Part shown: piece after piece, positions 12,419 through 62,857 of the stretch
Position numbering within the stretch: the first letter of the stretch is position 1
Layout: each line of letters starts with the position of its first letter
Translations under genes and position numbers: made by a program
Notes under the pieces: model-generated
Seen by the model: only the letters and a program-made list of their open reading frames with translations
What the model was told of the DNA's origin: nothing
The model's database searches: none
From: Ailurus styani
Lineage: Eukaryota > Chordata > Mammalia > Carnivora > Ailuridae
Reading direction: 5' to 3'
Assembly: GCA_002007465.1 (NCBI GenBank)
Contig: LNAC01000350.1
Coordinates: forward strand, 1,151,037-1,215,036
DNA: 64,000 bases

Positions 12419-12748
12419 TGGGATCCCCCCACCCCACCATTTTTACTACTGCTTTCCAAAGAATTGCAAGATCCAGGAGAGTTCACCTGATTTTGCCTTT
12501 TCCTTCCTCCTATAAATTACAATCTCCCTGTTCTGAAGTATTGACTTTTCTTTGAAAAAACTAGCTTTCACCCTTATTTCNGTGGGATCCCCCCACCCCA
12601 CCATTTTTACTACTGCTTTCCAAAGAATTGCAAAATCCAGGAGAGTTCACCTGATTTTGCCTTTTCCTTCCTCCTATAAATTACAGACAATCTCCCTGTT
12701 CTGAAGTATTGACTTTTCTTTGAAAAAACTAGCTTTCACCCTTATTTC
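12419..12748. repeat. N-separated direct duplication (probable assembly overlap)
   Basis: The block 12419-12580 is repeated at 12583-12748 with only 'n' and one base between. The copies differ by one G/A substitution and a 4-bp 'gaca' insertion in the second copy. This is the pattern expected when two contig ends from different haplotypes overlap but are not merged. Open frames through it are not meaningful. Confidence 0.9.
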
Positions 12749-13835
12749 ATGGTGTCTGAGTCCATCACCAACTAAGAGCCTTGGGGAACCATTTCCACTA
12801 ATGGACACTGTACTCCCCAGTGTAGTTAATTTCACCCTTATGGTTAGAAAGAGTTAATGTCTTTTGCTACTAAGGTGTAACATATAAACTAGGTGAAGAA
12901 GATGATACCCTGTGTTTTTCCAAAATGGACATCTTTACAAGTCATTAACAATTTTATCTTCCAGAAGTTTTCTTTATTTTTTTTCTCCAAAAACTTTAAA
13001 CTTATACAATATGCAACCATCACTCTTTGGAAAGGGCATTTCAACAGATTTGATTTTCTTATATATTTTTGCCTTTCGCACAACTTGATGAGTTCCTTCA
13101 TTAATCTCTTGGTCTCCCTGCCTCTCCTCCATCTGGCATCACTAGCAGATGGAGGCAGAATTGCTCAGATATAAAGGGACACACTCCAACTACAAATATA
13201 TCACAAAGATAGCAAACAAAGATACTTTGTGATTATTGGATGGTAAAAATTATATAAACTCCATCTATTATTTAATGTAACTGTTATTAAATATGGGCTT
13301 TCACAATTTACAATTGTGGTATATAAACTGTGTATATAACTGTTTACATATACTCTAACTTTTTGATTGTAATACATAAACTGTGACTTGGTGATTGTAA
13401 TTTGTACATTTATTCAACAAGTATTTATTAAATACCTACTATATACAATGAAATTAACTGGGGATAAAATGGAGTACAAAATAAGATAATCTTTTTCCTC
13501 AAAAATATATGAATAATAGTTTCCAGGATACCAAGTATTAAGGGTACACATAAAAAATACTTAGTGTAGAAGGTTTACATAAATATACTATGCTACTACT
13601 CTTCTAACCTTCCCACATGAAACCTCTATAAAAGCCTTCTCAGGCAAACTTTATCCAACTTTACTTAGCATGTAGTAGAGTCAACCGATAGCAATCAATC
13701 AATCAATTTTTCAAGAAACAAATCTTTACTGAGCTCCCACTATACAAGATATACTGTGCTTGGCCTGTGATGAATGAAAAGAATTATAAGGTAGTACCAC
13801 TTGTTCACTCAAGGAATTAAACAAAGCAAAACTTG
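12749..13835. other. Unique AT-rich stretch
   Basis: Mostly unrecognised sequence. Around 13400-13460 and 13710-13765 two short runs resemble the 'caacaagtatttattaaatacctactat' type of ancient repeat core; each is too short to assign. Overlapping frames 12889-13101 (minus) and 12893-13174 (plus) show no domain. Confidence 0.4.
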
Positions 13836-14018
13836 ATACCAGAGAGGAGGTGCACGGGGTGATGTATGAAATAGGTGATTAGGATTAAGGAGTGCACTTG
13901 TTGTGATGAGCACCAGTTAATGAATGGGATTTTTGAGTCACTATATTGTGCACCTGAAACAAATATAATACTATATGTTAACTATATTGGAATCAAAATT
14001 TTAAAAAAATTACAAAAA
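13836..14018 (+). mobile_element. Carnivore L1 3' end, 5'-truncated
   Basis: The segment matches the L1 3' terminal region: aaggagtgcacttgttgtga, then gatgagcaccagttaatgaa, then a 'tgaaacaaatataatactat' motif and an A-rich tail. The flanks caaaacttg and caaaaaacttg suggest a short target duplication. It is only about 180 bp, a typical severe 5' truncation. Confidence 0.8.
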
Positions 14019-14149
14019 ACTTGGTCAGATACAAATTGCACATGAAATGATAAATACAGTACTGCAGAACATGTGACATATCCTGGCTGATTCATACAGA
14101 AATATATACTGGGATCCCTGTTTGGAAGTTCAGTAAGCACCTCATGCTA

Positions 14150-15025
14150 TCACCAAATGCATCCTCACCTCCTCCTCCACCCCGCTGAGGCTACTCTTCT
14201 CTATTCGCTCTAAGGCAGACACCAAGGCATCATTCTGGATCCCACTACTCCATTGTCCCCCACTCCCCCTTCATCCAAAAATCAATAAACTCTTTGTATT
14301 TAAAATATTTAAAATCTATCTTTTAAACCAAAGTACTTTTTGCTATCACTAGTTCAAACCCTTGTCATCTTTTACCTCGATATACTGCAACACAGCTGCT
14401 TAATACTTCCTTCTATCTTTTCTGTACCCACACCTCAGGCACACTGATCTTTCTAAATATAAATCCCGACCTGCTTAAAAAATTATTTTTTAATAAACCC
14501 TTAATGCCTCCCCACCTTCTTCAGATTAAAATCCAAGCAACTTAGCATGGCATAGAAAGTCTCTTACGATTTAGTTTCTCCTTCTGCCTCCAACCTCATC
14601 TCCATCTGGCATTTACTACTCTGTGTTCCAGTCACACACAGCCACTCTGACGATGGGGCCACTTTTGCCTAGAGTGTTCTGCCCTGCCTCCCACCCCACC
14701 CCTACCACTTACTTTGGCTTACTCAGATTCATAATTAAGAGACTGCCTACATATATCTTCTTTGAAAAATTGTATCTGCCACTCTACCCTTATCCCCTTC
14801 TGAGTGTGGTGTCCCTCCCATATGTGCTTTTGGGGCGTATACATAGCTGTCATTATTTCTTAATATGTAGTGATATATTTGCCTATTGACTTTCTTCCCA
14901 TAGGCTCTAAGGTTCATGAAGTTAGAGACCTAGCCTCTCATCATTTTCTAATCAGCAACCCACACAGTGCCTGATATAAAATAAGCACTTGGTAAACATT
15001 TGTTAAATTGAATCAATAAGTACCA
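14150..15025 (+). mobile_element. L2 LINE fragment, plus strand
   Basis: L2 landmarks in order: cttgtcatcttttacctcga and tactgcaacacagctgctta (RT C-terminal region), ctgatctttctaaatataaa, ccctcccatatgtgc, then the 3' tail gtgcctgatataaaataagc and acatttgttaaattgaatca. All frames are broken; the frame at 14623-14889 is a relic. Confidence 0.65.
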
Positions 15026-15554
15026 TAAACACTCAGGAGAGTGAGCAATTAGCTTTAAAGATTTCTTGGAAATAAAACCAGGCAAGAGGCAAATGGACCA
15101 GCAGATATTGTCTGTCAGACACAGAAGCTGCTCAATTAATGCTAGTTCCCTGTCTCTTGAATTATCTCCTGAAAATTGATTGCAACTACGTAAATGAAGG
15201 TGAGAAAGAGGAGTTTTTTAATTGGGGGTTGTATCAGTCTCAGCTTCAAAAAGTATTTGGGGAGTAAGGGAGATTAGGACTTAAAGAACGTGAGGAGCTG
15301 AGGAAGGGAAGGCCTGAAAAGTCCAGCTAGAGGACTGGAAAACAAGTCACTGACTACCACAACCAGAAACTCAGGTGGAGAGGCTGGGGCCCATGCCAAA
15401 GTGCAGGGAGCTGCAGTACCTGGGGATTAGAAGGAAAAGGGAGAAGATAAAAATAATTGGCTGAAGTCAAAGAGTAGATATAAACAATGTAGCAAAGAGA
15501 AAATTTCAGAAAACTAAACTGACCTGGTGAAGTAGGCTTGAGAGGCCAGGTGTG
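15026..15554. other. Unique stretch
   Basis: No repeat or gene recognised. Purine-rich text around 15180-15330. The minus-strand frame 15354-15635 runs into MIR sequence and has no domain. Confidence 0.4.
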
Positions 15555-15745
15555 ATAATAGGAAGGGGTTGACTTTGAAGTTAGAAGGTTTTGTTTTAAA
15601 AGCTCAGTTCTGCCATTATTAGCTTTATGACCCAACTAAATACTTAATTTTCTAAGCCTTGGTTACCTCATGTGGAAAATGTGGATAAACCCTGTAGGTA
15701 GTGTTGTCATAAGGATTAAATGAAATAATGTGTACAAAGTTCCAG
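15555..15745 (+). mobile_element. MIR SINE
   Basis: Good MIR order: ctcagttctgccattattag, then ctttatgacccaactaaat, then ggttacctcatgtggaaaat, then gttgtcataaggattaaatg and a weak tail. This is one of the clearer MIR copies in the window. Confidence 0.75.
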
Positions 15746-15868
15746 GGCTTATTAAACTTTCTGTAAAATTTAACTACCATCTTATCATTTTAGATGGTTC
15801 GGTCTCTTATGGCACCTTTGATATCTATTGTTCCTAATGTTATTAGGTATGGGATCACAATGAAAATT

Positions 15869-16060
15869 TTGAAAGAGATAAAGAGAGAGAGAGAGAACAC
15901 AAGCAGGTGGTGGAGGCTCAGCGAGAGAGGGTTAGAATCTTAAGTAGGCCTCATACCCAACGTGGAACCTGAGGCAGGGCTCAATCTCATGACCCTGAGA
16001 TCATGACCTGAGCCTAGATCAAGGGTCTGATGCTAGCTGACTGAGCCACCCAGAAACCCC
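15869..16060 (-). mobile_element. Older CAN-SINE, minus strand
   Basis: The complementary SINE body is recognisable (ctgagatcatgacctgagcc at about 15994) with a (GA)n-type tail region and a decayed head (ccacccagaaacccc). A 9-bp target duplication cacaatgaa flanks it (15856-15864 and 16060-16068). The high divergence marks it as an early carnivore insertion. Confidence 0.88.
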
Positions 16061-16068
16061 ACAATGAA

Positions 16069-17310
16069 CATCTTTTTGAACAAAGAAATGGAAGCATTTC
16101 TCTCTCTGTCAATCTAGCACTTGAGTATATTGCTCTTTAAATATTTGTAATGTGTTTCTCTAGTGTATCGTATGTTTCTAGAAGTGTGTTAGATGATTTT
16201 CATTAGATTGCACTTTCATTGAGGGCAGAAACAGTATCCATCTTCTTGCAGCTTTCCACAGTACCTATTGCAATCTAATACAGTGCACACAGTTGACAAT
16301 TGATGAATGTTGTGGACAGCAGCAACTAGGTCCGATTCTGTCTCATACAACCTATAAGTTTCTCAAATTACAAATGAGCAGAGAGAGAGAGAAGCATTTT
16401 TTTGTGTTTGAAATGAATTGAGCAACTATGGAAAATAGGTAAAACAGGTAAGCAATATGAAATATATCAATTCATGTGTGAAAGGCAGCACTTCAATAAA
16501 CATAAAAATAACTTGTATTGTTTACTTTTAACCTTAACTAAATGGCTAGTCTAGAAATTATCCCAAGAACATTTTTCAGATGAACTTGTCTTACTTGAAA
16601 TTTTAAAAGTATCTGGAAATTTTCATTTTCAGATCATAGTAGTACATTTTTCATTATCGTTAAGAAAATCAACAATGTTATTATTAAAAATAAATCTTCA
16701 AGATTTAGATAATGAGCTGCTTTCTGATCATTTTCTCTCCATTGTGTGCAAAACTAGATCATAGAGAGGGGCTTCATTTGTCTTGAACTTTCAGTATAAT
16801 TGGCCAAATATCCAAGAGGCTTTAGCCCAGATTTCCAAGTATTTCCAAATGAAAATGTGTAGGCATATTTAAAATTAAAACCAACAGCACAATGGCATAT
16901 AGATTTAATTTGTTCTTTCAATTTTAATGTTGTGAAAAAAGTTTCTACAAATAGAGAATTGATTTGTTTGAACATTGTGCAAAATAGAGAAAGGGAAAAT
17001 GGACCTCTGGAGCTATCAATCATGAGAGCAACTAAAAATCAGATTGGTCACTAGTAAAACCTACTGCATCATATGTATTTTATCTTTTTGTTCCTTCATT
17101 AAGTAAGTAAATATGAGCATCTACCAATGTTTCTGCTTTGTTCATTGCTGGTTTCTTAAATTGTAGTCAACATACTTTAATTCTGGCATGTCATCATTGA
17201 ACCAATAGACTAGCTGCTCTTACAGATTTAATTTACCTATTGAGGGCTTGGGACCATCTATATTGGAGTCAAGTAAATAAAGAAGGAATGAAATTACTTT
17301 CCAGGAAAGC
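16069..17310. other. Unique stretch
   Basis: Non-repetitive, AT-rich. Around 16080-16330 the text (cattgagggcagaaacagta) hints at an L2 tail but is not convincing. The minus-strand frame at 16754-17023 has no recognisable domain. Confidence 0.4.
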
Positions 17311-17569
17311 TGCAAAGAAGTGATGTAACATGAGAATATTATTAAGTGTCTACTCCATCAGATTAATGGGTTAAAAGAAAAAAAATACCTAACAGGGGTA
17401 TATATATCCCTTTGAATTCATGTTTTGTATTCTTTGAGTNTGCAAAGAAGTGATGTAACATGAGAATATTATTAAGTGTCTACTCCATCAGATTAATGGG
17501 TTAAAAGAAAAAAAATACCTAACAGGGGTATATATATCCCTTTGAATTCATGTTTTGTATTCTTTGAGT
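17311..17569. repeat. N-separated perfect 129-bp duplication
   Basis: The block 17311-17439 is repeated without a visible mismatch at 17441-17569, separated only by 'n' at 17440. This is read as an unmerged contig overlap and not biology. Confidence 0.92.
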
Positions 17570-17995
17570 ACCTAGTAGTGTGATTACTAGATTGTAAGAG
17601 AGTTCTATTTTTAACTTTTGAGGAAAACCCGTACTGTTTTCTACATGGCTGCACCAGTTTGCATTCCTACTAATAGTGCATGAGGGCTCCTTTTCCCCAC
17701 ATCCTCACCAATACCTGCTGTTTCTTGTGTATTTGACTTTAGTCATTCTAACAGGTGTGAGGTGATATCTCATTTTACTTTTGATTTGTATTTCCCTGAT
17801 GATGAGTGATATTGAGCATTTTTTCGTGTGTCTGTTGGCCATCTGTATATATTCTTTGGAGAAATGTCTGTTAGTGTCTTCTGCCCATTTTTAACTGGAT
17901 TATTTGTTTTTTGGGTCTTGAGTTGTATCAGTTCTTTATATATTTTGGATACTAACCCTTGGAATGTCTTTCCTCCATTAACCAATCTTATAAGA
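17570..17995 (-). mobile_element. L1 ORF2 C-terminal fragment, minus strand
   Basis: The plus strand carries the reverse complement of the L1 ORF2 C-terminal region: gtttgcattcctactaatag, tgtgaggtgatatctcattt, gtatttccctgatgatgagt and tctgttggccatctgtatat. Stops break the frame. Its left edge coincides with the N-flanked duplication. Confidence 0.85.
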
Positions 17996-18204
17996 AAATG
18001 AAACAGTAGCAATTTCTCCCCTGATATTCCTAAAACTTATCAATACTACTCTTAAGTGGCAGCACTTCTCCTTCTTATTACAGTTATTTGTAAATTACTT
18101 AACATCTCTTCATTGTATGACCACATTTTACTATCAAAAAGTTTAATACTATACACACAAAATTATATGTAAAGTGTATTATCTTACATACAGTATATAC
18201 TCAA
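17996..18204. other. Short unique spacer
   Basis: AT-rich, nothing recognised. Confidence 0.4.
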
Positions 18205-18440
18205 TAAATTTTACTTCCTCAGAGGATACTTCCCTCTCACTTCCTTGTTTTGTGTTTTCATATCATGCCTTATTTCCTGACAGATTTTTACAATGTTAAC
18301 TAATTAATTGATTAATTTAGTCATTTACTTAATATATATTTTCCTAATAGGTTTGTGAAGCCAGTTATTCTATGTCTTAGTAACCAGTTTTCCTGCACCT
18401 AGCTTAGTACTTATAGGCATCAGGAGATATTTTATAAATG
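18205..18440 (+). mobile_element. L2 3' end remnant
   Basis: Motifs match an L2 tail: ctcagaggatacttccctct, ttgtgaagccagttattcta, then cctagcttagtacttatagg. The element is ancient and diverged and its limits are approximate. Confidence 0.45.
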
Positions 18441-19011
18441 GGTGAAAGATGCTTAACCAATTTATTCCTCCTTCCATAGTTAGAAAACTAATATTTTATT
18501 CTACTGTCCCATAAGGCTGGTCTGTTTATTCTCTGTTTATATCTCGTAATATGTTAGACCTCTGTGTGTGTATATTGCTTACACCCAGCAGGACAAATCT
18601 GGGCCTGCATTTTCTTCAATGGAACAATTCTCTTATTCCCCCATCTGTCTCATAAAGCAATATTTTGAGAGTTAATCATGCAGTTAACATACTTTCCAGA
18701 GTCCTTGTTTCTGTTTTTCTCTTTCACTACTCACCTTTTGGTCATTTTCCTGATCATTAATACTTGAAGTATACTTACTTTGTGAAATGTGTTAGTAGAG
18801 GTTTAGGCAAGGGAGCGATTTGTAAGTTATCTTTGCTATTTCCTACATTCTGCTATCTTAGATAATCAAGAATTGAGTATGTATCTAAGAGAATGATCCC
18901 AAATAAATCTCATGAGTTATCCTAGTGGTAAACTCAGGGTAAATTAAAAAGCGGGTAAAGGCAACCATAAAAAATATTTAATTCATCTAGTTAGATTAAT
19001 ATTTTCCTGGC
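18441..19011. other. Unique stretch
   Basis: No gene or repeat recognised. AT-rich with scattered TG runs. Confidence 0.4.
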
Positions 19012-19533
19012 TGTTATGGTCATATCTGTATTGGAAACCAAAATCTGAGAAACTGTAGCAGCATTCCAACTGGTCTTAAGGGTTAACTTGCTTCAAACTT
19101 ATAAACTCCTTGTTTGCTGACTTAAGTCCCTTGGCCTACAGCAGAACTAACCTGTTTTCCTTAAGATTTGCAGACCACTGGCCTTGACAAGTGAAGGATC
19201 AAACTTTCCCAGAAGATTAGGAGTGACTGCATTTGAAAACAGGTGCCACTGATGTGTCAAGTCTGTTGAGAGTCATGCTGATGCATAAGTAACCCCCTGG
19301 GCACCTGCTCCTCCTGCACACAGCCCCGTTCCCTTTTCCCTTCCCTTCCCCTTTAAAACTCTCTGGCTCTGCCTGGAAGGGGAAGATGGTCTTTGAGACA
19401 TTAGTCTATCATCTTGCCAGCTTCCCGAATAAGCAATCTTTCCTTTCCCAACATCACTTCTTTTTGGAGGATTGATTTTTTGATCAGTGAGCAGCCAAAC
19501 CTGAGGTCAGAACCAGTTTTGTGTCCACTAACA
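19012..19533 (+). mobile_element. Probable solo LTR of an endogenous retrovirus
   Basis: The stretch begins TGTTATGGTC and ends CTAACA, compatible with TG...CA LTR ends. A TATA-like ctttaaaact lies at 19351, and a polyadenylation-like gaataagcaatctttcc near 19427 is followed by a T-rich and GT-containing R/U5-like part. It is GC-richer than its surroundings. No gag, pol or env sequence lies on either side, so it would be a solo LTR. I see no clean target duplication, so the ends are tentative; the start could instead be near 19047. Confidence 0.5.
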
Positions 19534-19569
19534 AACTATATATGTTGAGGAACAAATATTTAACTTTTT

Positions 19570-19753
19570 TTTTTAAAGATTTTATTTATTTATTTTACAG
19601 AGATATTACAAGTAGGCAGAGAGGCAGGCAGAGAGAGGAGGAAACAGGCTCCTACTGAGCAGAGAGCCCGGTGCGGGGCTCAATCCCAGGACCCTGAGAT
19701 CATGACCTGAGCCGAAGGCAGAGGCTTTAACCACTGAGCCATCCAGGCGCCCC
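19570..19753 (-). mobile_element. CAN-SINE, minus strand
   Basis: The complementary body is complete (gcagagaggcaggcagagag, ctgagatcatgacctgagcc) with the head ending ccatccaggcgcccc. The target duplication atttaacttttt is at 19558-19569 and 19757-19768. Its right flank is the block duplicated around the N at 19832. Confidence 0.95.
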
Positions 19754-19757
19754 AACA

Positions 19758-19906
19758 TTTAACTTTTTCAGTGTATAAAGTGGTGATATGAGATAGCAAA
19801 TCATTTGGAATTCTATTGAAGTTTACATACANTTTAACTTTTTAAGTGTATAAAGTGGTGATATGAGATAGCAAATCATTTGGAATTCTATTGAAGTTTA
19901 CATACA
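19758..19906. repeat. N-separated 74-bp duplication
   Basis: The block 19758-19831 recurs at 19833-19906 with a single C/A difference, separated by 'n' at 19832. It is read as an unmerged contig overlap with one allelic or sequencing difference. Confidence 0.9.
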
Positions 19907-20893: not shown

Positions 20894-21049
20894 TGAGGTG
20901 CTTTGGGGGCATCAGCAGCTAACTGTAGTGGGATGGAGTCCAACATGTGTTTATCCTACATAAAATGTTACATTTTTGTATCTGGTAATTTAAGAGCAAT
21001 ATTCCAGTGTATTAAGATTAGTGAAACTCATTCTCTAAATGAATTTGGG

Positions 21050-21257: not shown

Positions 21258-21270
21258 AAATGAACTTGGG

Positions 21271-21354
21271 GACAGTTCTGTTCACAGAAATTAAATATCG
21301 GGAGTAACTGAAGAAGTTTCTTTGAATAATTTGGTTATTTTACTAATTTACCCA
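21271..21354. other. Short unique spacer
   Basis: Nothing recognised. Confidence 0.4.
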
Positions 21355-22150: not shown

Positions 22151-22686
22151 AAAAGGAAGATTCCAGCTGGACATAAATAGGAATTTGCTAGAAAACAGAG
22201 TTGTTCAGAAGGGAAAGACCACCCTGGTCTTCCACATGCAACTGTTTCCCATTCTACTGGACCATTCTACCACATGAAGTGAGTCCAAAGTTTCAGTGCC
22301 GTGTCTGCCACTGTTCAGTGTGTTTTTTCACATCACATCATTGACTTATGGGAATGAAACTGAGTTAAATAGCTAGACCTTGATTCCAAAGTAGAGTATT
22401 GATTTGCTAGTCCTCCTAACTCTCCTTCACAGGACTCTTGCATTTGCTATTGCCTCTCCCATTCATGCCTTATCTCTTTCCTTATCCCCTTTTCCCAACC
22501 TGAGCTCTGGGATGTTTTTGTTTACCTATATTAATTAAGATTGGTAATGTCAATATCTTTCCTTTTGTTTTGGGCTTATTTTCCCCCTCCACCAAATGCC
22601 TTGTATTCTTCTGTCAATGAATTGAAATCATCTGAAAGCAGATTGGTGAGTGAAACTGGAAGATGAGGCTACCCTGGAAGCAAATT
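22151..22686. other. Unique stretch
   Basis: No repeat or gene recognised. Confidence 0.4.
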
Positions 22687-22893
<207 letters not shown>

Positions 22894-25548: not shown

Positions 25549-25819
25549 CCTATATATTTAAGAAGACCATCTTTTCAACAATTATGTTCACATTCTTCTG
25601 TAGAATAAAGCAGTGCCATTCGTTTTAACTTGATTTTGCAGAGTTTACCAGTAGATGGCAGTACGTATTCAGTCTTCTGGGAANCCTATATATTTAAGAA
25701 GACCATCTTTTCAACAATTATGTTCACATTCTTTTGTAGAATAAAGCAGTGCCATTTGTTTTAACTTGATTTTGCAGAGTTTACCAGTAGATGGCAGTAC
25801 GTATTCAGTCTTCTGGGAA
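25549..25819. repeat. N-separated 135-bp duplication
   Basis: The block 25549-25683 recurs at 25685-25819, separated by 'n' at 25684. The copies differ at two C/T positions (ttcttctgtag/ttcttttgtag and ccattcgttt/ccatttgttt). This fits two haplotypes of one locus left unmerged. The unit contains the CTCF-like word ccagtagatggcag, so it would count twice in motif scans. Confidence 0.92.
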
Positions 25820-26886: not shown

Positions 26887-26961
<75 letters not shown>

Positions 26962-29370: not shown

Positions 29371-32054
29371 TTTTTTTTTTGCCCCAGGGGTACAGGTCTG
29401 TGAATCATCAGGCTTACACCTTTCACAGCACTCACCATAGGACAAACCCTCCCCAATGTCCATGACCCAGCCACCCTATCCTTACCCTCCCACCCCCACC
29501 CCCAGAAACTCTCACTTTGTTTTGTGGTATTAAGAGTCTTTTATGGTTTGTATCCTTCCGAATACCATCTTGCTTCATTTTTCCCTTCCTACCCTCCAAA
29601 ATCTCCCTCCCTGCCCCTCAAATTCCTCATATCAGAGAGATCATATGATAATTGTCTTTCTCTGATTGACTTATTTTGCTTAGCATAATACCCTCTAGTT
29701 CCATCCACGTCATTGCAATGGCAAGATTTTGTTTCTTTTGATAGCTGCATAATATTCCATTGTATATATATACCACATCTTCTTTATCCATTCATCTGTT
29801 GATGGACATTTAGATTCCTTCCATAGTTTGGCTATTGTGGACATTGCTGCTAAAACATCCGGGTGCATGTGCCACTGCAGATCACTACATTTGTGTCTTT
29901 AGGGTAAATACCCAGTAGTGCGATTGCTGGGTTGTAGGGTAGCTCTATTTTCAATTTTTTGAGGAACCTCCATACTGTTTTCCAGAGTGGCTACGCCAGA
30001 TTGCATTCCCACCAACAGTGTAAGAGGGTTCCCCTTTCTCCACATCTTCGCCAACATCTGTCATTTCCTGACTTGTTAATTTTAGCCATTCTGACTGGTA
30101 TGAGGTGGTATCTCACTGTGGTTTTGATTTGTATTTCCCTGATGCTGAGTGATGTTGAGCATTTTCTCATGTGTCTGTTGGCTATTTGGATGTCTTCTTT
30201 GGAGAAATGTCTGTTCATGTCTTCTGCCCATTTCTTGACTGGGTTATTTGTTCTATGGGTGTTGAGTTTGGTAAGTTCTTTATAGATTTTGGATACAAGC
30301 CCTTTATCTGATATGTAATTTGCAAATATCTTCTCCCATTCTGTCAGTCATCTTTTGGTTTTGTTGACTATTTCCTTTGCTGTACAAAAGCTTTTGATCT
30401 TGATGAAGTCCCAATAGTTCATTTTTGTCCTTGCTTCCCCTGCCTTTGGTGATGTTGCTAGGAAGAAGTTGCTGCAACTGAGGTTGTAGAGGTTGCTGCC
30501 TGTATTATTCTCAAGGATTTTGATGGATCCCTGTCTCACAGTGAGGTCTTTCATCCATTTTGAATCTATTTTTGTGTGTGGTGTAAGGAAATGATCCAGT
30601 TTCATTCTTCTGCATGTGGCTGTCCAATTTTTCCAGCACCATTTGTTGAAGAGACTGTCTTTTTTTCCATTGGACATTCTTTCCTACTTTGTTGAAGACT
30701 AGTTGACCATAGAGTTGAGGGTCAATTTCTAGGCTCTCTATTCTGTTCGATTGATCTATGTTTCTGTTTTTGTGCCAGTACCATACTGTCTTGATGATTG
30801 CAGCTTTGTAATAGAGCTTAAAGTCTGGAATTGTGATGCCACCAACTTTGGTTTACTTTTTCAACATTCCTCTGGCTATTCAGGGTCTTTTCTGGTTCCA
30901 TATAAATTTTAGGATTATTTGTTCCATTTCTTTGAAATAAATTGATTGTATTTTGATGGGAATTGGATTAAATGTATAGATTGCTCTAGGTAGCATAGAC
31001 GTTTTCACAATTTTTGTCCTTTCAATCCATGAGCATGGAATGTTTTTCTATTTCTTTGTGTCGTCCTCAATTTCTTTCATGCGTACTTTACAGTTGGCTG
31101 AGTACAGATTCTTTGCCTCTTTATTTAGGTTTATTCCTAGGTATCTTATGGTTTTGGGTACAATTGTAAATTGGATCTACTTAATTTTTCTTTCTTCTGT
31201 TTTGTTGTTGGTATATAGAAATGCTCCTGGTTTCTGTTCATTGACTTTATAATCTGACACTTTATTGAATTCCTGTATGAGTTCTAGCAGTTTTGGAGTG
31301 GAGTCTTTTGGGTTTTCCATATATAGTATCATATCATCTGCAACGAGTGAGAATGTGACTTTTTCTTTGTCGACTTGAATGCCTTTTGTTTTTGTTTTCT
31401 GATTGCTGAGGCTAGGACTTCTAGTACTATGTTGAATAGCAGTGGTGATAGTGGACATCCCTGCCATGTTCCTGACCTTAGGGGAAAAGCTCTCAGTTTT
31501 TCCCATTGAGAATGATATTCGCTGTGGGTTTTTCGTAGATCGCTATGACTATATTGAGGTATGTACCCTCTATGCCTACACTGTGAAGAGTTTTGATCAA
31601 GAAAGAATGCTGTACTTTGTCAAATGCTTTTTCAGCATCTATTGAGAGTATCATATGGTTCTTGTTCTTTCTTTGATTAATGTATTGTATCATATTGATT
31701 GATTTGCAGATATTGAACCAACCTTGCAGCCCAGGAATAAATCCCACTTTGTTGTGGCAAATAACCCTTTTAATGTAGTTTTAGATCCTATTGGCTAGTA
31801 TTTTGGTGAGAATTTTTGCATCCGTGTTCATCAAGGATATTGGTCTGTAATTCTCCTTTTTGATGAAGTCTTTGCCTGGTTTGGGGATCAACGTAATGCT
31901 GGCCTCATAAAATGAATTTGGAAGTTTTCCTTCCATTTCTACTTTTTGGAACAGTTTCAGGAGAATAAGTATTAATTCTTCTTTAAATGTTTGGGAGAAC
32001 TCCCCTGGGAAGCTGTCTGGCCCTGGGCTCTTATTTGTTGGGAGATTTTTGATG

Positions 32055-32055
32055 N
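32055..32055. other. Single unresolved base flanked by an 8-bp direct repeat
   Basis: ttttgatg occurs immediately before (32047-32054) and after (32056-32063) the N. Relative to the expected L1 sequence this adds exactly 9 bp, keeping the local ORF2 frame open with three extra codons. It fits the unmerged-overlap pattern of the other N positions at a much shorter overlap. Confidence 0.8.
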
Positions 32056-32635
32056 TTTTGATGACTGCTTCAATCTCCTTACTGGTTATGGGTCTATTCA
32101 GGTTTTCTATTTCTTCCTGCTTCAGTTTTGGTAGTTTATATGTCTCTAGGATTGCATCCATTTCTTCCAAGTTGTCAAATTTACTGGTGTAGAGTTGCTC
32201 ATAATATGTTCTTATAATTGTTTGTATTTCTTTGGTATTGGTTGTGATCTCTCCTCTTTCATTCATGATTTTATTAATTTGAGTCCTTTCTCTTTTCTTT
32301 TGGTTAAGTCTGGCCAGGGGTTTATCAATCTAATTAATTCTTTCAAAGAACTAGCTCCTAGTTTCGTTGATTTGTTCTACTGTTCTTTTGGATTCTATTT
32401 CATTGATTTGTTCTCTGATCTTTATTATTTCTCTTCTCCTGCTGGATTTAGGCTTTCTTTGATCTTCCTTCTCCAGCTCCTTTGGTGTAGGGTTAGGTTT
32501 TGTAATTGAGACCTTTCTTGTTTCTTGAGAAAGGCTTGTATTGCTATATACTTTCCTCTCAGGACTGCCTTTTCTGTGTCCCAAAAGTTTTGAACAGTTG
32601 TGTTTTCATTTTCATTTGTTTCCATGAATTTTTTT

Positions 32636-32789
32636 TTTTAGATTTTTTATTTCTTTATTTGACAGAGAGAGGAGGAAGCAGGCTCCCTGCTGAGCAGAGA
32701 GCCCCGATGTGGGCCTCGATCCCAGGACCCTGGGATCATGACCTGAGCTGAATGCAGAGGCTTTAACCCACTGAGCCACCCAGGTGCCC
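32636..32789 (-). mobile_element. CAN-SINE nested in L1 ORF2
   Basis: A minus-strand CAN-SINE with target duplication tccatgaattttttt perfectly matching at 32621-32635 and 32790-32804. Body gacagagagaggaggaagca, ctgggatcatgacctgagct, and head ccacccaggtgccc. It is shortened in the GA-rich zone. It lies in the same orientation as its L1 host and is younger than it. Confidence 0.96.
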
Positions 32790-33681
32790 TCCATGAATTT
32801 TTTTAATTCTTCTTTAATTTGCTCATTGACCCTTTCATTCTTGTTCCTTAGCCTCCATGTATTTGAGCTCTTTCCAACTTTCCTCCTGTGATTGAGTTCT
32901 AGTTTCAGAGCATTATGGTCTGAAAATATGCAGGGAATGATCCCAATCTTTTGGTACCAGTTGAGACCAGATTTGTGACCTAGGATGTGGTCTGTTCTGG
33001 AGAATGTTCCATGTGCACTATAGAAGAATGTGTATTCTGCTGTTTTGGAATGGAATGTTCTAAATATATCTGTGATGTCCAACTAGTCCAGTTGGACCAG
33101 TTGTCATTTGAAGCCTTTATTTCTTTGTTGATCTTTGCTTAGATGCTCTACATTTCAGTGAGGGGGTATTAAAATCCCCTACTATTATTGCATTATTGTC
33201 AATGTGTTTCTTTGATTTTGTTATTAATTGGTTTATATAATTGGCTGCTTCCATGTTAGGGGCATAGATATTTAAAATTGTTAGATCTTCTTGTTGGACA
33301 GACCCTTTTAATATGATATAATGTCCTTCCTCATCTCTTACTATAGTCTTTGTCTTAAAATCTAATTTATCTGATATAAGGATTGCCACCCCAGCTTTCT
33401 TTTGATGTCCTAATGGTAAATTGTTTTCCACCCCCTCACTTTAAATCTGGAGGTGTCTTTGGATCTAAAATGAGTTTCTTGTAGACAGCATATCAATGGG
33501 ACTTGTTTTTTTTATCCATTCTGATACCCTGTGTCTTTTGATTGGGGCATTTAGCCCATTTACATTCAGGGTGACTATTGAAAGATATGAGTTTAGTGCC
33601 ATTGTATTACCTGTAAGGTGACTGTTATTGTATGTTCTCTCTGTTCCTTTCTGGTCTGTTACTTTTAGACTCTTTCTTTGC

Positions 33682-34618
33682 TTAGAGGACCCCTTGCAGT
33701 ATTTCCTGTAGGGATGGCTTGATGTTTGCAAATTCTTTTAGTTTTTGTTTGTCCTGAAAGCTTTTTATCTCTCCTTCTATTTTCAATGACAGCCTAGCTG
33801 GATATAGTATTCTTGGATGAATATTTTTCTCATTTAGTGCTCTGAATATATCATGCCAGTTCTTTCTGGCCTGCCAGATCTCTCTGGATAGGTCTGCTGT
33901 CATTCTAATATTTCTACTATTGTATGTTACAGACCTCTTGTCCTGAGCTGCTTTCAGGATTTTCTCTTTGTCACTAAGACTTGTAAGTTTTACTATTAGA
34001 TGATGGGGTGTGGACCTATTTTTATTGATTTTGAGGGGGGTTCTCTGTGCCTTCTGGATTTTGATGCTTGTTCCCTTCACCAAATTAGGGAAATTCTCTA
34101 CTATAATTTGCTCCAATATACCGTTTGCCCCTCTCTCTTCTTCTTCTTCTGGGATACCAATTATTCTAATATTGTTTCATCTTATGGTTCATTTATCTCT
34201 TGAATTCTCCCCTCATGGTCCAATAGTTGTTTGTCTCTCTTTTCCTCAGCTTCTTTATTTTCTATTATTTGGTCTTCTATATCACTAATTCTCTCTTCTG
34301 CTTCATTTATCCAGCAGTAAGAGCTTCCATTTTTTATTGCACCTCATTAATAGCTTTTTAAATTTCAACTTGGTTAGATTTTAGTTCTTTTATTTTTCCA
34401 AAAAGGGTTTTTATTTCTCCAGAGAGGGATTCTCTAATATCTTCCATGCTTTTTTCCGAGTCCAGCTAGCACCTTGATAATCATCATTCTGAACTCTAGT
34501 TCTGACATATTACTGTCTGCATTGATTAGGTACCTAGCCATCATTACTGCCTCTTGTTCTTTTTCTTTCTTTCTTTCTTTCTTTTTTTTTTGTGTGGTGA
34601 GTTTTTCCACTTTGTCAT
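33682..34618 (-). pseudogene. L1 ORF1 (RNA-binding protein), disrupted
   Basis: The ancestral ATG complement is at 34616-34618 (peptide start MTKWKNSPH) and the stop is at 33682. The C-terminal half is still open over 144 codons (33682-34116) and holds the conserved RRM/C-terminal-domain text, for example LSREIWQARKNWHDIF and RILYPARLSLKIEGEIKSF. The N-terminal coiled-coil half (MSELEFRMMIIKVLARLGK region) is broken by stops and frameshifts. The total length of 937 bp is not a multiple of three. Confidence 0.9.
34559..34591 (+). repeat. (TTTC)n and T-run at the ORF1 start
   Basis: Four TTTC units followed by ten T, just downstream (in L1 sense) of the ORF1 start codon. It has expanded inside the coding region and contributes to the loss of frame. 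Confidence 0.9.
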
Positions 34619-42949: not shown

Positions 42950-43545
42950 AGACAGAATATTGCCATCCATGATCTTAACCCCTAATGTTACTTGAATGGA
43001 TATGTTTCATTATATACCAAAAGGGATGTAACTAAGGTTACTAATCAGCTAACTTTAAGACAGGTAAATTATCCTACATAACGTGGTTGGACCTACTATA
43101 ACTACAGGAGCCCTTCAAAGCGGAGATCTTTCTGTGGTGGTAGTAGAAGTCAGAGATTCAAAACATATGAAGGATTCAATGTGCCATTGTTGACTTGACT
43201 ATGAAAGGCTACATATTAAGCAAACAGGGACCTCAACTTTAAAAATGAGATGGAACTGAATTCTGCCAATAATTTGGGATTAAAAGCAGATTCTTCACTT
43301 TAAAAATGAGATGGAACTGAATTCTGCCAATAATTTGACTGGGATTAAAAGCAGATTCTTCCTTGAAATTTCCTGGTAATATCCCAGCCCAGCCACCACC
43401 TTGATTTTGGCCTTGTGCAGCCCTGAGCTGATAATTCAGCTAGATCTTCTGGTGCTTCTTGTCTACAGAACTGTGAGATATTAAGGGCTGTTATTTTAAG
43501 CTGGTAAATTTTGATAATTTGTTATGGCAGCAATAGAAAACTAAT
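42950..43545 (+). mobile_element. MLT1-type LTR with internal tandem duplication
   Basis: Landmarks: gcagacagaatattgccatc, ccaaaagggatgtaactaag, gacaggtaaattatcctaca, ggaactgaattctgccaata, acagaactgtgagatattaa, gttatggcagcaatagaaaa, ctaatt. The block at 43236-43296 is repeated at 43297-43361. Confidence 0.75.
43236..43361 (+). repeat. Tandem duplication (61 + 65 bp) without an N
   Basis: Copy one 43236-43296 and copy two 43297-43361 are identical except that copy two has four extra bases (gact after aattt). Compared with other MLT1 LTRs only one unit is expected. Confidence 0.92.
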
Positions 43546-54930: not shown

Positions 54931-55669
54931 TGATTATCTATATGTATTTTAGACAAAGATTCAGAAATGCTTGAAATAGATAGGATAGTTTAGATTGATT
55001 AAAAGATAAAATTATGCTTTTTAAAATTAAATTCATTACTTTTAGCTACCTAATCTAGGTTAAAAAAAGAATTACATAAAAAGCTCACTAAAGAAACAGC
55101 TTTAAAGAACAGAAGACAATGAATTGCAATTATACCATTGATTTACTTTTATGCAGATAAATGCTTCTAATGAGCTTTAAGTAATTCTTTTAAATTAGAT
55201 AAATATTTCCCCCTGTGATTCTTCTTCATAGTCTTCTTTGGCTTTGAAATGCTTTTTTTTATCCTTGAAATTTATAAGGTAAATTTTACCCTAGTCTATG
55301 ACTGCATAATTATACATTTTAAATTAGTAGAGTCTGAAATAATGTGACTCCTGTAGTGAAACCGATATTTTAAAATACTGAGTATATAAAAGCTATTCTC
55401 TGAGTGCCTTAGCTCATTTTTCAGTGTGTTTCTTTTAAAATTTAAAATGTATTAATCTTAGAATGATAAAAATCAATTTTTAAAATATGGACATCAATTG
55501 ATCTTGAAAGACAGCAAGTCTTTAAGAACAGGTCTTGGATATCTAGCACTATGTTTTGCTATCAACCTGGCATTCTTGTAGCTCATAATTTGATGGTGAC
55601 ACTCTGATTTTCCTGTCTTTTAAAAAGATTGATTAAAATTCTCTGAGAGTGTCTCCCTTTCTGATTTCC
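54931..55669. other. Unique AT-rich stretch
   Basis: Very AT-rich with many TAAT words; no repeat family or gene recognised. Confidence 0.4.
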
Positions 55670-56165
55670 TTCTGCAAATATGTACTGATCATCAATTATG
55701 TGCCAGACACTAGGTTTGGTACTATATATCAATGATGAACTATACAGAGAACTTGAGCTTAAAGAACACGTGTTCTAATTGAGAAAGGAGGATGAGTTAC
55801 AGGCAATAATTGGTATAATGAAAGGTATAAAATACTTAACTAAAGGTGCTATATAAACAGGGGCTTCTAATTTTGTGGGAGAAGGAAGTCAATGACATCA
55901 ACCTAGAAGAAATGACACCAATTTTGAGACTTTAAGGCTGTCAAATAAATGTTTGCCAGGTAATGTGGAAAAGGAAGAATATTTTTGACAAATAGTTCAA
56001 AGTTCAAAGGCTTAGAAGTCAAAGTGAATAAGAGAACATAAAGCATTTGGGAAACTCAAGGAAGTTTATCATGGCTGCAGTTTAGAATATGACTGAAATG
56101 CTGGCAAAAGATGAGTTGGCAGAGGTCAAATCATCAAGAGTTGAAGATGTGTCACAGGGCTGGAT
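55670..56165 (+). mobile_element. Ancient interspersed repeat, same family as 21355-22010
   Basis: Motifs: tcatcaattatgtgccagac, gagcttaaagaacacgtgtt, aaaggtgctatataaacagg, gaatatgactgaaatgctgg, aaatcatcaagagttgaag. The order follows the 21355 copy, with higher divergence. Confidence 0.45.
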
Positions 56166-56189
56166 ATAGACTCAGTAAAAGTGAGGACT

Positions 56190-56559
56190 GCATGGATGGA
56201 ACTAGAGGGTATTATGCTAAGTGAAATAAGTCAGTCAGAGAAAGACAAATACCAAATGATTTCACTTATATGTGGAATTTAAGAAGCAAAACAGATGAAC
56301 ATATGGGAAGGGAAGGAAAAATAAAATAAGATGAAAACAGGGAGGGAGGCAAACCAGAAGAGACACTTAACTATAGGGAACAAACTGAGGGTTGCCAAGG
56401 TGAGGGGATTGAGGTGATGGGGTAACTGGGTGATGAGCATTAAGGAGGGCACATGATGTAATGAGCACTGGGTGTTATATACAACTGATGAATCACTGAA
56501 TTCTACCTCTGAAACTAATAATACAGTTAATGTTAATTAAAATGAATTTAAATTAGAAA
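56190..56559 (+). mobile_element. L1 3' end with target-site duplication, plus strand
   Basis: Runs from catggatggaactagagggt (end of ORF2) through gtggaatttaagaagcaaaa and gggtaactgggtgatgagca to the 3' end. The target duplication aaaagtgaggact / aaaagtggggact is at 56177-56189 and 56560-56572 (one mismatch). Length 370 bp, typical of 5'-truncated L1. A short clean carnivore-lineage insertion. Confidence 0.92.
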
Positions 56560-56572
56560 AAAAGTGGGGACT

Positions 56573-57336
56573 AAGGTTTCAATCCAACTCTTGGCTGTGA
56601 TTTTTTATTTTTATTTTTTGCAATTTATGTAACAGCTGACTTATTTTCATCATCTCTGTAATGCTAACAATACGATAGAGGCTTTCTTAAAAAGTTAATA
56701 ATAAAAAGTGATATATACAAATCTTAAGCCTTTAATTATAATTTAAACAAATATTCATTTGCCAGCAGTTTTTTAAAGAGTGAAAAACATTTCTTTTTAG
56801 TGTAAGTCTGCTGATGGGACTTTGGTATGATCTTGCATAAACCACACCATTATGTTTCTTCTGTGATTTTCAGTCTTAGTTTCTTTAAAATGAGTGAGAA
56901 CTGAATACCTGAAGAAATCCATCTTCTTAATCTTTCTCAATTTTTATTGTTCTCAGCACTTTACAGTGCTGTACAAACATAATTTAATAGCAGTTCTTTT
57001 TACTGACCCATCTTTATTTGGCTTCCAAAATATTCTATTTAATGTTTAGAGAAAATATAGAAACAACTTTCTTTTTTTAGGATCTTCTATATTTTTGGTT
57101 TACAAGTTATTAAAATAACAATTTCAAAATAATGACAACTGACCTTAGAAGTTTCAGGATCCAACTCAATTGATTCTTAATAGCACATGACTTAAACTTG
57201 GGATGAAGAAATGAACACTCTGTACTACTCTTTAGTATTAAAGGATAGCCTAGTGGATATAAGTGTTCAGTGAATGATGAGCATTGCTCAGCATGTTTCC
57301 TTGAGGGAGTGGAAAATGTCAGTTAATCTAGGGAGT
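56573..57336. other. Unique stretch
   Basis: AT-rich, nothing recognised. Confidence 0.4.
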
Positions 57337-57366
57337 TTTTTTTTTTTTAAAGATATATCCATTTAT

Positions 57367-57402
<36 letters not shown>

Positions 57403-57570
57403 CAAGCACACGCACTTGGGGGAAGGGTAAAGGGAGAGGGAGAGACAGTCTCAAGAAGGCTCCAACTGAGCACAGAGCTCTACACGGCTCGGATCTCACC
57501 ACCCTGAGATCATGATCTGAGCTGAAACCAAGAGTCAGAGGCTTAACCAACTGTGCCACTCAGGAGCCTC
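57337..57570 (-). mobile_element. CAN-SINE, minus strand, with expanded GA tract
   Basis: T-run, then about sixteen GA units (57370-57401), gggaagggtaaagggagagg, ctgagatcatgatctgagct, gaaaccaagagtcagaggct, head ccactcaggagcct. Target duplication taatctagggagt at 57324-57336 and 57571-57583 (perfect). Open frames on both strands are by-products. Confidence 0.95.
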
Positions 57571-57583
57571 TAATCTAGGGAGT

Positions 57584-59319
57584 CCTTCAAGTAAAAGATG
57601 TTTAAGTTCTTTGGATGACTTTTAGCTTATAAAGTTTATGAACGGGTTTAATGAGATTGTATGAAAACAACTAACAGAGTGCCAGATGCATAGTAAATGT
57701 TTAAGACATTATGTTACTTCCACTTCATATTTATAATTTATCCCTTAATAGGATAAATCATCCCTTAAATAATTTTACTTTGGTACATATGTTTCCAGGC
57801 CAATGTTAGGCCGTATCATGCCTCTGTGGGAATTAAGAATAGCACTCCATCAGAATAGGTGAATTCCTTCAAGGCCATGGTTTATAAGAGGGGAATGGTT
57901 TTGTGTGAATTAGAAAAATATGTTCCTTTTTTCCAGAAGCACATCCTGGCACCTGCTCTGTAGGCTGAATGTCAGCCCCCTCTTGTCCTCTGAGCTGGCT
58001 ACCTTTGTGTAGTTAATAATGGTAAAATCCTACACTGCATCTTTAACTGAGTTAAAGATGATCTGGCCTCTCCTAGTACCATGAAGAGAAATCTTTGCTC
58101 CCTTTAGGTGACCAGATTTTTTCTTCTCTTTTCATATCTGTGTAACTAGCTCATGTTTTTCCATCAGTATATTTCCTGAAAGTTCACACTGGTGAAGGAG
58201 GCTTTTTTAATTTCTGCCTTGTATGAAAACAATGGGGATTGAGTGTTGATGACGGAAGACTCCACAGCTAACAAAAAAGTGCAAACACAATTCATGATGA
58301 TTCTCCTTCAAACTGGACTAAGAAGAAAAAAAAATGTGGATTAAATGTCAGTTTTTTATATTTCTCTTACTTGGATAGAAAATTGAATAGCTTATCTGTT
58401 GCACGAGTTTACATATAAATCAAGACAGAATTTGTTTCGGTATGCAGGGAACACCATCCTTTTGGTCCCTCAAATGTTGCAGATTTTGTAAGGCAAAAGA
58501 TGTTTAATTTCACATATCTTAAACTTGGGAATTTGGCCATCCTCTTTCTTAGATTTTCTGCTAGTATTCAGTTCAGATGTATAAAATATTAAGTAGGGTA
58601 TTTTATCATTTGAAAATAACGTGGACATGAAATGATAGGTTTGTTGAATTCTTACTTGAGCTTAAATGATTTCCCTCAATTCTTTGGGTATAAGCAAATG
58701 CGTTTCGTTGGAAGGCATACCTCTCTTCCATGAGCCTTTCTTTTGATAAATACATTTTGATTCATACTGGGTTCTATTCACTGGGGTTTATTCATGACAA
58801 GGACATATGAGGGACAGGCAGCTAATTGCTCTGCAAAATTTTTAAGGAATTGGAAGGCCAAGCAAAAGGTTCTACAAACCTTGGTAAAGGAGTATATTGA
58901 CTCTGAAGGGGTTGCATTGTCCTATGACTATGGGAAGACCTTTGATTACATTAGAGAAGGCTATGAACAAAGGTGAAAATAACATGGGATTTTCTGTTTA
59001 ATGCAGTAAAAACAATCAGTAAAAACAAAAGGAATGTACATATTTAGAATATGTTTATATATACATGAATATAAATATTTAAAATCCAAATATTTCTGGA
59101 TTTAAAAGAAAATATTTATTTTAATTTTTAAAATGCCAAGAAAATAAATCTCTGTAAACCTTTTTTCCAGTATTTCCCTTGTTTTCAATTTTATCTTTTT
59201 TCAATTTATCATATTTTCAATTGTATCCTTACACAAAATATTTTCTAATCTACTAATCTAGAAGTGATATTATCTTGATTTCTAAATGTTCTCTCTTAAG
59301 CTACTTACAGTTTCTAGCT
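57584..59319. other. Unique stretch
   Basis: No named repeat. A 60-codon frame at 58794-58976 has a less biased composition than the surrounding frames, but no recognisable domain and no splice or start context. I do not call it a gene. Confidence 0.4.
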
Positions 59320-59460
59320 TAATTGGATTAATTTGCATTTATATGTCTTAGTTTTCACTAAGTTGTAAGATTCTTGAAGGTAGGGCCAGTGTCTCACAAA
59401 GACATTTCCTTTGGCAAATGTTGCACAAAATTTAGAGTATAAATGAATAAATGAATAGCT
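59320..59460 (+). mobile_element. L2 3' end remnant
   Basis: cttagttttcactaagttgt, aagattcttgaaggtagggc, cagtgtctcac, then an AAATGAATAAATGAAT tail, typical of the L2 end. Confidence 0.6.
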
Positions 59461-60287
59461 CTGTTGTGTAACACAATTGCAGCATTTTTGATGCTAAGTC
59501 CTGCATGCTACAAAGGTAAAATGCTCCAAGGCAAGTGTGTCATATCTGACATAAAATTTTAGAAAACCTCAAAAATGTCATTTAAAAAAAATGATAAATA
59601 GAACATAAGGTTTGTGTTTTAACAAAACATGATGACAAGTGAAACTTATTAAGCTCAATGTCAGTGTGAAATTCTAGAACTTGGGATGGAATTATTAAAC
59701 TAGTTCTTTGTTAAGAGTTTTATGGTATTCTAGTCTCTAGTAGGAGGTAAAAAGCTGGCAGACTATGGGAGGGAACATAGAAATATATCCTAGGCACATA
59801 GGGATTAGTTTTAATTGCAGTGTACTAAAAGGAAGGGTTGATCCTAAATTTGTTAATCCTGTGTACAAGGAGTGTATATTTCATTAAAAATGAATAGGAG
59901 ACAAGTACCAATGCTACTTTGATCATTTATGGTAAAAAAATAATTTCATTTCTCACATGATTAAAATATTGTAGTTCAGTTACTTATATATCACCATTGC
60001 TGGACAGATAACTTTTATAGGACGTTGAAAAAATTCTCTCCTGCCAGCCTCATGTTAGTAGCTCGACTGTCTTGTCCAGGAGAACAACAAGTGATGGAAA
60101 GGTCAAAATGAGTTGCATTTTAATGAAATCTACTTAATTGTAAAAGCAGAAATAAGCTAGTAAAAAAGAAGGAAGAAATGCTTGTTATCTATACACAGGT
60201 GTGTTTCATGGTACACATGGGAGAAAGTGCAATTTATACTCCAACAGGATAGAAATATGAATTGGAGGGCTCTAAGGCAGCCACTGT
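59461..60287. other. Unique stretch
   Basis: Nothing recognised. Confidence 0.4.
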
Positions 60288-60347
60288 CTTTTTTTTTAAG
60301 TTTTTATTTTAATTCCAGTTAGTTAACCTACAGTGCTATATTGGGGT
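60288..60347 (-). mobile_element. 60-bp L1 3' end sliver with target duplication
   Basis: The complement of a carnivore L1 3' terminus (T-run, then aattccagttagttaaccta, cagtgctatattgggg) is bracketed by agccactgt at 60279-60287 and 60348-60356. It is an extreme 5' truncation. Confidence 0.85.
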
Positions 60348-60356
60348 AGCCACTGT

Positions 60357-60959
60357 TTTGACTTTTTTGCTGAATTTATGGGCTCTTACCTTGGCTTTTC
60401 CTTTCAAATCTGATTTTTCTCTTTCTGGTTCTCTGGGGATATAATGCAAGATCATTTCCTTGCAGCTGCCAAATTTAGCTGTTCTCAATTTAACTAGCAG
60501 AAGCCAGCATCTATCTCCCATTAAAACAAACTTCTGGGACAGATAATGTTAATGGTCCAGCTTAGTGCACACCTTGTCTAATAAAACATAGTCAAAAATT
60601 GTCAGTTACTGCAAATTTGGCTGTCAAATCTACTTCCTTTGGAGAGAAATGGAGTTCTTAGGGAAGTGGATAGTTCACATGTTGAAAAGAGACTCTAACA
60701 AGTATTTTCTATTCCTTTTCACCTTTTGAAGAGGGCATCACCAAATACAGAAACAATTCTCAAGTGGGACAATGGAGCAGAAAGTTTTTTGTCACTGTAA
60801 ACTACCCCTGAATATATAATACTTGAAAATATATGAGGAGTGTAAAATGCTTCCTGACTGTCACCACAGAAATTTGATAAAACATTCCCTGCAAAAATCT
60901 AGTAGTCTCACTGGCCTCCCTTCAATCAGGTGGAAACTGCTCCAAAGGAAAGTTATCAG
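60357..60959. other. Unique stretch, partly LTR-like at its right end
   Basis: 60760-60959 may be the 5' part of the following LTR but is not clear. Frame 60336-60521 (minus) has no domain. Confidence 0.35.
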
Positions 60960-61245
60960 AGATGCGGAGACACAGACACATGTGGGAGAAATGCCATTTG
61001 ATGATGGAGGCAGGGGTTGATGTGCTAGAGCTGCAAGCCCAAAAATGACAAGGATTGCTGGCAAACCACCAGAATCTAGAAAGATGCAAGGTAAGGTTCT
61101 TTTCCCCAGGCTTCAGAGGGAGCATGGCCCTGCCAACACCTTAATTGTGGACTACTAGACTCCAGAATTGTGACATAAATGCCTGTTGGTCTAAGCCACC
61201 TGGTTTGCAGTACTTTGTTATGGCACCCCTAGCAAACTCATACAA
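60960..61245 (+). mobile_element. MLT1-type LTR (3' half clear)
   Basis: agatgcggagacacagacac, gtgggagaaatgccatttga, tgatggaggcaggggttgat, caaggattgctggcaaacca, cagagggagcatggccctgc, caacaccttaattgtggact, tccagaattgtgacataaat, tactttgttatggcacccct, agcaaactcataca: all in MLT1 order. Confidence 0.8.
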
Positions 61246-61529
61246 TGTGATCTAGGAAAGAGTACAATCTCAGAGTCATTGCTGGCTGGGTGTAATCACT
61301 TGTTAGATGTATGTCTTGAAGGATAGCTTTGGACATACCACTTCTCATAGAACAACAAGAATCTAGGTCAAAAGTGGTAATCTGGGGGAACTGGATGAGA
61401 AAATAAGATGAGAAATTGAAGGGAGTGAAATAAATCAGGAAGATGGTAAGAAGTTGAAGCAATTATTGATAGGGGTGGGAAGAAAGCCATCAAGAGAGTG
61501 CTGGTGGCCATTTTAGTAAGTGTCTAATA
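61246..61529. other. Unique spacer
   Basis: Nothing recognised; ends in the TA target of the next element. Confidence 0.4.
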
Positions 61530-62170
61530 CAGTTGATATTAATTATTTGGGGATCTGTGTCTGTGAATTTGCCTACTTGATAAACCTGATTTGAAATAAT
61601 AAGCTCCAAATCAATACTTGTGGTACAGTCATTCCCAGACATGACAGGATAGTAAAATTCTGAATTATTGGACTAGCCCATTCCCAGCTGAGGTCGATGA
61701 ACAAGAAGATACTCAGCTGCTTTGTTTCAGCTCTCATACTGTAAACAAGCGGGGATTTTCTGCAGTATTTTTAGTGCCATATTTTTTGCAATTTTGTTGG
61801 TAATTTTGCTATTTAAAATGGGCCCCGAGCATAGTGCTGAAGCATAGTCTGGTGTTCCTAAGTGCAAAAGGCTGTAATAATACCTTATGAAAAAAAATAC
61901 ATGTGCTAGATAAGCTTTCAGGCAGGAGTTATGGAGTTGTTAGCTGTGAAATCTATGCTAATGAATTTGCATTTTAATATTAAATAAGGTGATTTTCAAC
62001 AGAACACACATAACAAAGTAAGTGTTAATTGGTTGATGAAAATGTTATAACCAAAGACTCATAGGACCCTAACCCTGTTTTCCTCTAGAAGCAGTGGTTC
62101 AGTATTTGTTAATTCAGTGTTTGTGGAGACTTTGTAGAATATAACTACCACAAATAATGAGAATCAACTG
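61530..62170. mobile_element. Tigger-type DNA transposon with TIRs and TA duplication
   Basis: Left end CAGTTGATATTAATTATTTG; right end reverse-complemented CAGTTGATTCTCATTATTTG. TA on both sides (61528-61529 and 62171-62172). The 641-bp interior joins both termini of a Tigger: cagctgaggtcgatgaacaa, gtactgtaaacaag-type, aaatgggccccgagcatagt, gctgtaataataccttatga, taaataaggtgattttcaac, gttgatgaaaatgttataac. The transposase-encoding middle is missing, so it is an internally deleted derivative. Confidence 0.9.
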
Positions 62171-62585
62171 TATATGATTTAAATTTGTTCATGGAAGTTC
62201 ACAAAACTTCAGTAAACATTCACCTACAGACTTGAATCTATGTGTGTGTGTGTGTGTGTGTGTGCTGATGGATGGAAGAGGAGGGTGGGAACAAGGCAGA
62301 GTTTAAGATTTTGGCAGGTGGCAAAACTAAGGTAAAGGAACAGGCTTAAGAAAAAAGTCAGAGAATTGAAGGGAGCAGAAATTCTGAGCTGGAGATTGAC
62401 CACGTAAGGCTTCCAGAAGTTCACTGATATTTTGAAGAGCCTATGGTCTTTGGGAAGATGTTTAATGGGAATTTGAAAATATTTGTCCTTAGATGTTAAT
62501 TAGCTGACATAACATTAGCTGGAATAACAGTGATCTTATTCCCTGTGACTGAGCTCTTAACCACTGTGAAACTGATTCAAGTTTT
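62171..62585. other. Unique stretch with a TG microsatellite
   Basis: A (TG)n tract at 62240-62264 (about twelve units) is the only structured part. The minus-strand frame 62224-62424 includes its Thr-His translation. Confidence 0.5.
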
Positions 62586-62857
62586 AAGATAGATTCACCC
62601 TGCAAACGTAGCACAGGCATTGATTATGCCAAGAAACATTTTAATCTGGATTACTATAATTTGGTTGTAGCATTTTTGCATTATCATGACTTGTACCATG
62701 CTTCTTGTATATAGGCCTGNAAAAAGATAGATTCACCCTGCAAACGTAGCACAGGCATTGATTATGCCAAGAAACATTTTAATCTGGATTACTATAATTT
62801 GGTTGTAGCATTTTTGCATTATCATGACTTGTACCATGCTTCTTGTATATAGGCCTG
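62586..62857. repeat. N-separated perfect 134-bp duplication
   Basis: The block 62586-62719 recurs at 62724-62857, separated by 'n' (62720) and three A. No mismatch seen. It is read as an unmerged contig overlap. Confidence 0.92.

Follow-up and report, generated by a model that had tools for sequence, protein, structure and literature searches.

What does a single N stand for in an assembled genome when the bases before it are repeated directly after it? This question is raised by a 64,000-nucleotide stretch of contig LNAC01000350.1 from an Ailurus styani assembly (GCA_002007465.1, positions 1,151,037 to 1,215,036), hereafter called the window. Its non-ACGT bases number exactly six, and all are lone Ns (positions 12581, 17440, 19832, 25684, 32055, and 62720). 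A direct repeat is present on both sides of the N at all six sites. Very probably, these Ns are scaffold joins between overlapping contigs that were left unmerged with a token N written between them, and so reflect an assembly error and not biology.

Direct Repeats beside Six Single Ns

The left copy of each repeat always runs up to the N, and the right copy begins immediately after it, save for one unmatched base at 12581 and three at 62720 (Table 1). The five long repeats were found by local alignment of 600 bp on each side of the N, and the 8-bp repeat by an exact suffix-prefix match. These methods bore out a first-pass annotation of this DNA, which had reported repeats of 162, 129, 74, 135, 8, and 134 bp at the six sites in order. 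Its estimate of about 650 bp of false duplication in the window was also right, as the left copies total 642 bp. The same annotation had described the sequence before each N as repeated after it, and here the lengths and placement stand, but it left unstated that only three of the six pairs are identical (17440, 32055, and 62720). The copies differ by one substitution and a 4-bp indel at 12581, by one substitution at 19832, and by two substitutions at 25684. Over these three sites, the differences amount to four substitutions and one 4-bp indel, excluding the unmatched bases beside the N. A search of the rest of the window for further copies of the five long overlaps returned none at an E value of 1e-3.

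Table 1. Positions in the window of the single Ns, the repeat copies beside them, and the LINE-1 reading frame that spans one N (SNP, single-nucleotide polymorphism)
Feature	Positions	Strand	Basis or detail
Overlap 1, left copy, 162 bp	12419..12580		Ends at N; common suffix with right copy 62
Single N, overlap 1	12581		Base scan
Overlap 1, right copy, 166 bp	12583..12748		1 SNP and 4-bp indel
Overlap 2, left copy, 129 bp	17311..17439		Alignment
Single N, overlap 2	17440		Base scan
Overlap 2, right copy, exact	17441..17569		Alignment
Overlap 3, left copy, 74 bp	19758..19831		Alignment; common suffix 62
Single N, overlap 3	19832		Base scan
Overlap 3, right copy, 1 SNP	19833..19906		Alignment
Overlap 4, left copy, 135 bp	25549..25683		Alignment; common suffix 62
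Single N, overlap 4	25684		Base scan
Overlap 4, right copy, 2 SNPs	25685..25819		Alignment
8-bp overlap, left copy, inside LINE-1 ORF2	32047..32054		Suffix-prefix match; 3-residue insertion relative to ORF2p
Single N, 8-bp overlap	32055		Base scan
8-bp overlap, right copy	32056..32063		Suffix-prefix match; ORF2p alignment
Overlap 6, left copy, 134 bp	62586..62719		Alignment
Single N, overlap 6	62720		Base scan
Overlap 6, right copy, exact	62724..62857		Alignment; 3 unmatched bases after N
LINE-1 ORF2 reading frame across N at 32055	31781..32329	-	PDB match, best 8c8j_A, E 3.5e-71

The likelihood that such repeats arise by chance was assessed at 59,600 junctions (positions 400-63599, with those less than 300 bp from an N excluded). 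An exact abutting repeat of at least 100 bp occurs at only four of these (63479-63482), all of which derive from one N-free duplication (63349-63610). A more tolerant scan of the whole window, which allowed 3% mismatch and units of 60-250 bp, identified just two N-free sites, at 9398-9399 (71 bp) and 63475-63486 (131 bp). It recovered four of the six N sites, missing 12581 due to the indel and 32055 because the repeat is too short. The rarity of these repeats at N-free junctions therefore argues that the five sites with long overlaps are not the product of chance. Exact abutting repeats of at least 8 bp are far easier to find, occurring at 302 of the 59,600 junctions (0.5%), of which 271 are of low complexity by the filter used. 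On sequence statistics alone, the case for the 8-bp site would be weak, and it therefore depends mainly on the LINE-1 alignment described below.

A Constant Distance of 62 Bases and the LINE-1 Site

All three overlaps that carry internal differences (12581, 19832, and 25684) share a common suffix of 62 bases up to the N, such that the last difference is in each case the 63rd base from the end of the left contig. The other three, which lack internal variants, are uninformative regarding the distance from variant to contig end. If variants are placed at random and the indel is counted as one variant, the chance that all three distances agree is 1.1e-4. The path that carries one variant in a de Bruijn graph stops k-1 bases beyond it, and a distance of 62 therefore corresponds to k = 63. 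All three sites thus have a variant at base k, counted from the contig end, for a single value of k.

Seven toy de Bruijn graphs were built with k = 31, 63, or 71, each covering one SNP (and not two variants), and with no coverage of the second allele on the left. In all seven, the left unitig stopped k-1 bases beyond the SNP. A constant distance was also sought to the right of the N and was not found, as the common prefixes there are 51, 11, and 49 bases. All are below 62, which the toy graph allows. The right-hand starts in the toy graphs (11, 49, and 51) were fixed to these observed values and carry no predictive weight.

One of the six overlaps, the 8-bp repeat, falls in LINE-1. The minus-strand reading frame that spans this N has matches in the PDB to five LINE-1 ORF2 sequences (E values of 3.5e-71 to 1.1e-70), which, 8c8j_A included, are presumably human proteins. 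It also weakly matches an R2 protein. In both alignments shown, the sole gap in the 182-residue match to ORF2p consists of three extra residues, including the X at the N. Because the 8 bp and the N together make nine bases, or three residues, they account exactly for the surplus, and nothing is missing at this site relative to ORF2p.

Probable Overlapping Contigs Left Unmerged

The abutting repeats on both sides of each N, the constant distance of 62, and the nine surplus LINE-1 bases are explained if overlapping contigs were placed end to end. These observations support the view, already offered by the first-pass annotation, that adjacent contigs with overlapping ends were set down in this way with a token gap. 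Under such a mechanism, the true gap size would be negative at each join, the contigs would fail to be merged, and a token N would be written between them. The differences present at three sites are most likely allelic, and these overlaps probably join two alleles, with near-identical repeat copies being the alternative. With k = 63, a graph would carry the left contig on for 62 bases after its last difference, to the point at which the paths reconverge, and the right contig would follow the other path, beginning 11-51 bases ahead of the first difference. At the LINE-1 site, an overlap of 8 bp would have been too short for joining. At 17440 and 62720, where the copies match exactly over 129 and 134 bp, contig ends were probably extended in gap filling and not compared again afterward. 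We infer that the program was set to k = 63, that the differences are allelic in origin, that gap filling played a part, and what the token N means. Among the 10 papers listed, of 87, in a literature search for carnivore assemblies built with k = 63, no candidate assembly was named.

SSPACE and ABySS probably do something similar at negative gaps. For Meraculous (PMC3158087), negative gaps are described whose overlapping ends are either repetitive or too short. No explicit statement that scaffolding programs mark a negative gap with a single N turned up in the accessible text of the literature searched.

Could these sites instead be real short tandem duplications that halted the assembler, with each N marking a duplication boundary? 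Tandem repeats that exceed k are a generally known cause of broken contigs, and the window does contain tandem repeats that lack an N (e.g., 9328-9470, 43236-43368, and 63349-63613). However, the N lies on the copy boundary, within 0-3 bases, at six of six sites, whereas outside these sites there are only two N-free abutting repeats of 60-250 bp with at least 97% identity. Furthermore, a constant distance of 62 is not expected between real duplicates, and the extra 8 bp and N at 32055 are surplus to ORF2p. Real duplication is therefore a highly improbable source of these repeats. We find it scarcely credible that each N stands for a genuine gap of unknown length, with flanking repeats that have nothing to do with it. 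One could conjecture that the assembler or the data provider shortened runs of gap characters, in which case one N may stand for any length. Even so, flanking repeats at all six sites would be unexpected when exact repeats of at least 100 bp are confined to one duplication among the N-free junctions (4 of 59,600), and the ORF2p alignment at 32055 leaves no missing sequence for a gap to hide.

Several points weigh against the proposal that overlapping contigs were left unmerged. With lengths above k, two of the exact overlaps (129 and 134 bp) should merge in such a graph, and the k rule accounts for the left end at only three of the six sites. Exact tandem duplications at 63349-63981 occur without any N. 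In the toy graphs, the unitig of the alternative allele stays apart from the right-hand unitig, and thus the right contig requires an extra merging step that the real assembler must have made. Lastly, PMC5368935 reports for de Bruijn draft assemblies that position k, counted from the contig end, is where variants accumulate, but it blames these variants on unresolved repeated sequence rather than on heterozygosity and regards most of them as false positives. The differences observed here may therefore separate repeat copies and not alleles. The window resembles the cases in that source in having its last variant at base 63 in all three informative overlaps. Unlike those variants, which came from read mapping and were mostly spurious, the window has both sequences side by side.

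This class of error is already known, both as duplicated overlapping contigs (DOCs) and as false duplications. In a DOC as described by Kelley and Salzberg 2010 (PMC2864568), the end of one contig aligns with the beginning of the contig that follows it on the scaffold. For 11,113 of the 13,576 DOCs in chimpanzee (82%), the alignment lies no more than 10 bp from the contig ends. That account attributes DOCs to divergent haplotypes, gives a mean identity of 98.1% with few above 99.5%, and judges them by mate pairs. Taking each N as a contig boundary, adjacent contigs in the window likewise align end to start near their ends at all six sites, with 0-3 unmatched bases. In contrast to the DOCs described there, the overlaps in the window have short lengths of 8-166 bp, half of the six are exact, and the evidence for them is the assembled sequence. 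Ko et al. 2022 (PMC9516828) tie false duplications, both heterotype and homotype, to heterozygosity, to errors in the sequence, and to gaps filled incorrectly, and recognize them by haploid read depth, discordant linked reads, and k-mers present in one copy. A gap between the copies is a mark of false heterotype duplication, and one N separates the copies at each of the six sites.

False duplications of this type make spurious tandem repeats. They can also throw a reading frame out of register or, when sequences are compared, show up as indels or paralogues that do not exist. If six per 64 kb held genome-wide, the fault would be systematic and could be detected by a scan for end overlaps at single Ns. 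It is conceivable, if doubtful, that single-N junctions with a constant distance from variant to contig end would allow both the k of the assembler and the heterozygous variants of the animal to be read from finished sequence, without reads. A weaker alternative to this proposal is that 63349-63981 contains real and recent tandem duplications.

N-Free Duplications and Other Features

The duplications without an N at 63349-63981, which the first-pass annotation of the six Ns does not mention, comprise two exact pairs. Within a LINE-1 fragment, positions 63349-63479 are identical to 63480-63610 (131 bp), and in a neighboring pair 63642-63804 is identical to 63819-63981 (163 bp, period 177). A LINE-1 paralogue at 29777-30165 holds this stretch once, with ~81-85% identity over the pieces aligned by blastn, and in an ungapped scan each unit has one clear best place in the paralogue (66% and 79%). 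In the frame at 63109-63579, the match to ORF2p is confined to residues 34-97. The last 25 bases after the second pair best match the paralogue near 30322 (19 of 25, next best 15), and this weak match faintly suggests that the sequence after the second pair may skip forward relative to the paralogue. The two pairs may represent an overlap error that followed gap filling or may be a real rearrangement. If they are overlap errors, they would contribute ~300 bp more of false duplication.

The paralogue is part of a LINE-1 copy on the minus strand at 29777-34176, whose ORF1 and reverse-transcriptase domains are distributed across several frames. Part of the translation of frame 32612-33082 resembles that of 9241-9666 by eye, and perhaps represents a short interspersed element (SINE) inserted in LINE-1. 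From a list of 50 reading frames, eight were selected and searched against Pfam. Two frames gave matches to LINE-1 ORF1 domains and to a reverse transcriptase, and four of the eight gave no match. Endonuclease matches in 33117-33440 fall below the curated cut-off. A match to DUF4898, also below cut-off, was taken as chance. A search of the window against Rfam gave no match at gathering thresholds.

At 9328-9469, a 71-bp unit is present in two copies (97% identity) within an apparent SINE, which seems to resemble carnivore tRNA-derived SINEs. Elsewhere, a long TTCC-rich microsatellite of ~51 units occupies 22685-22887.
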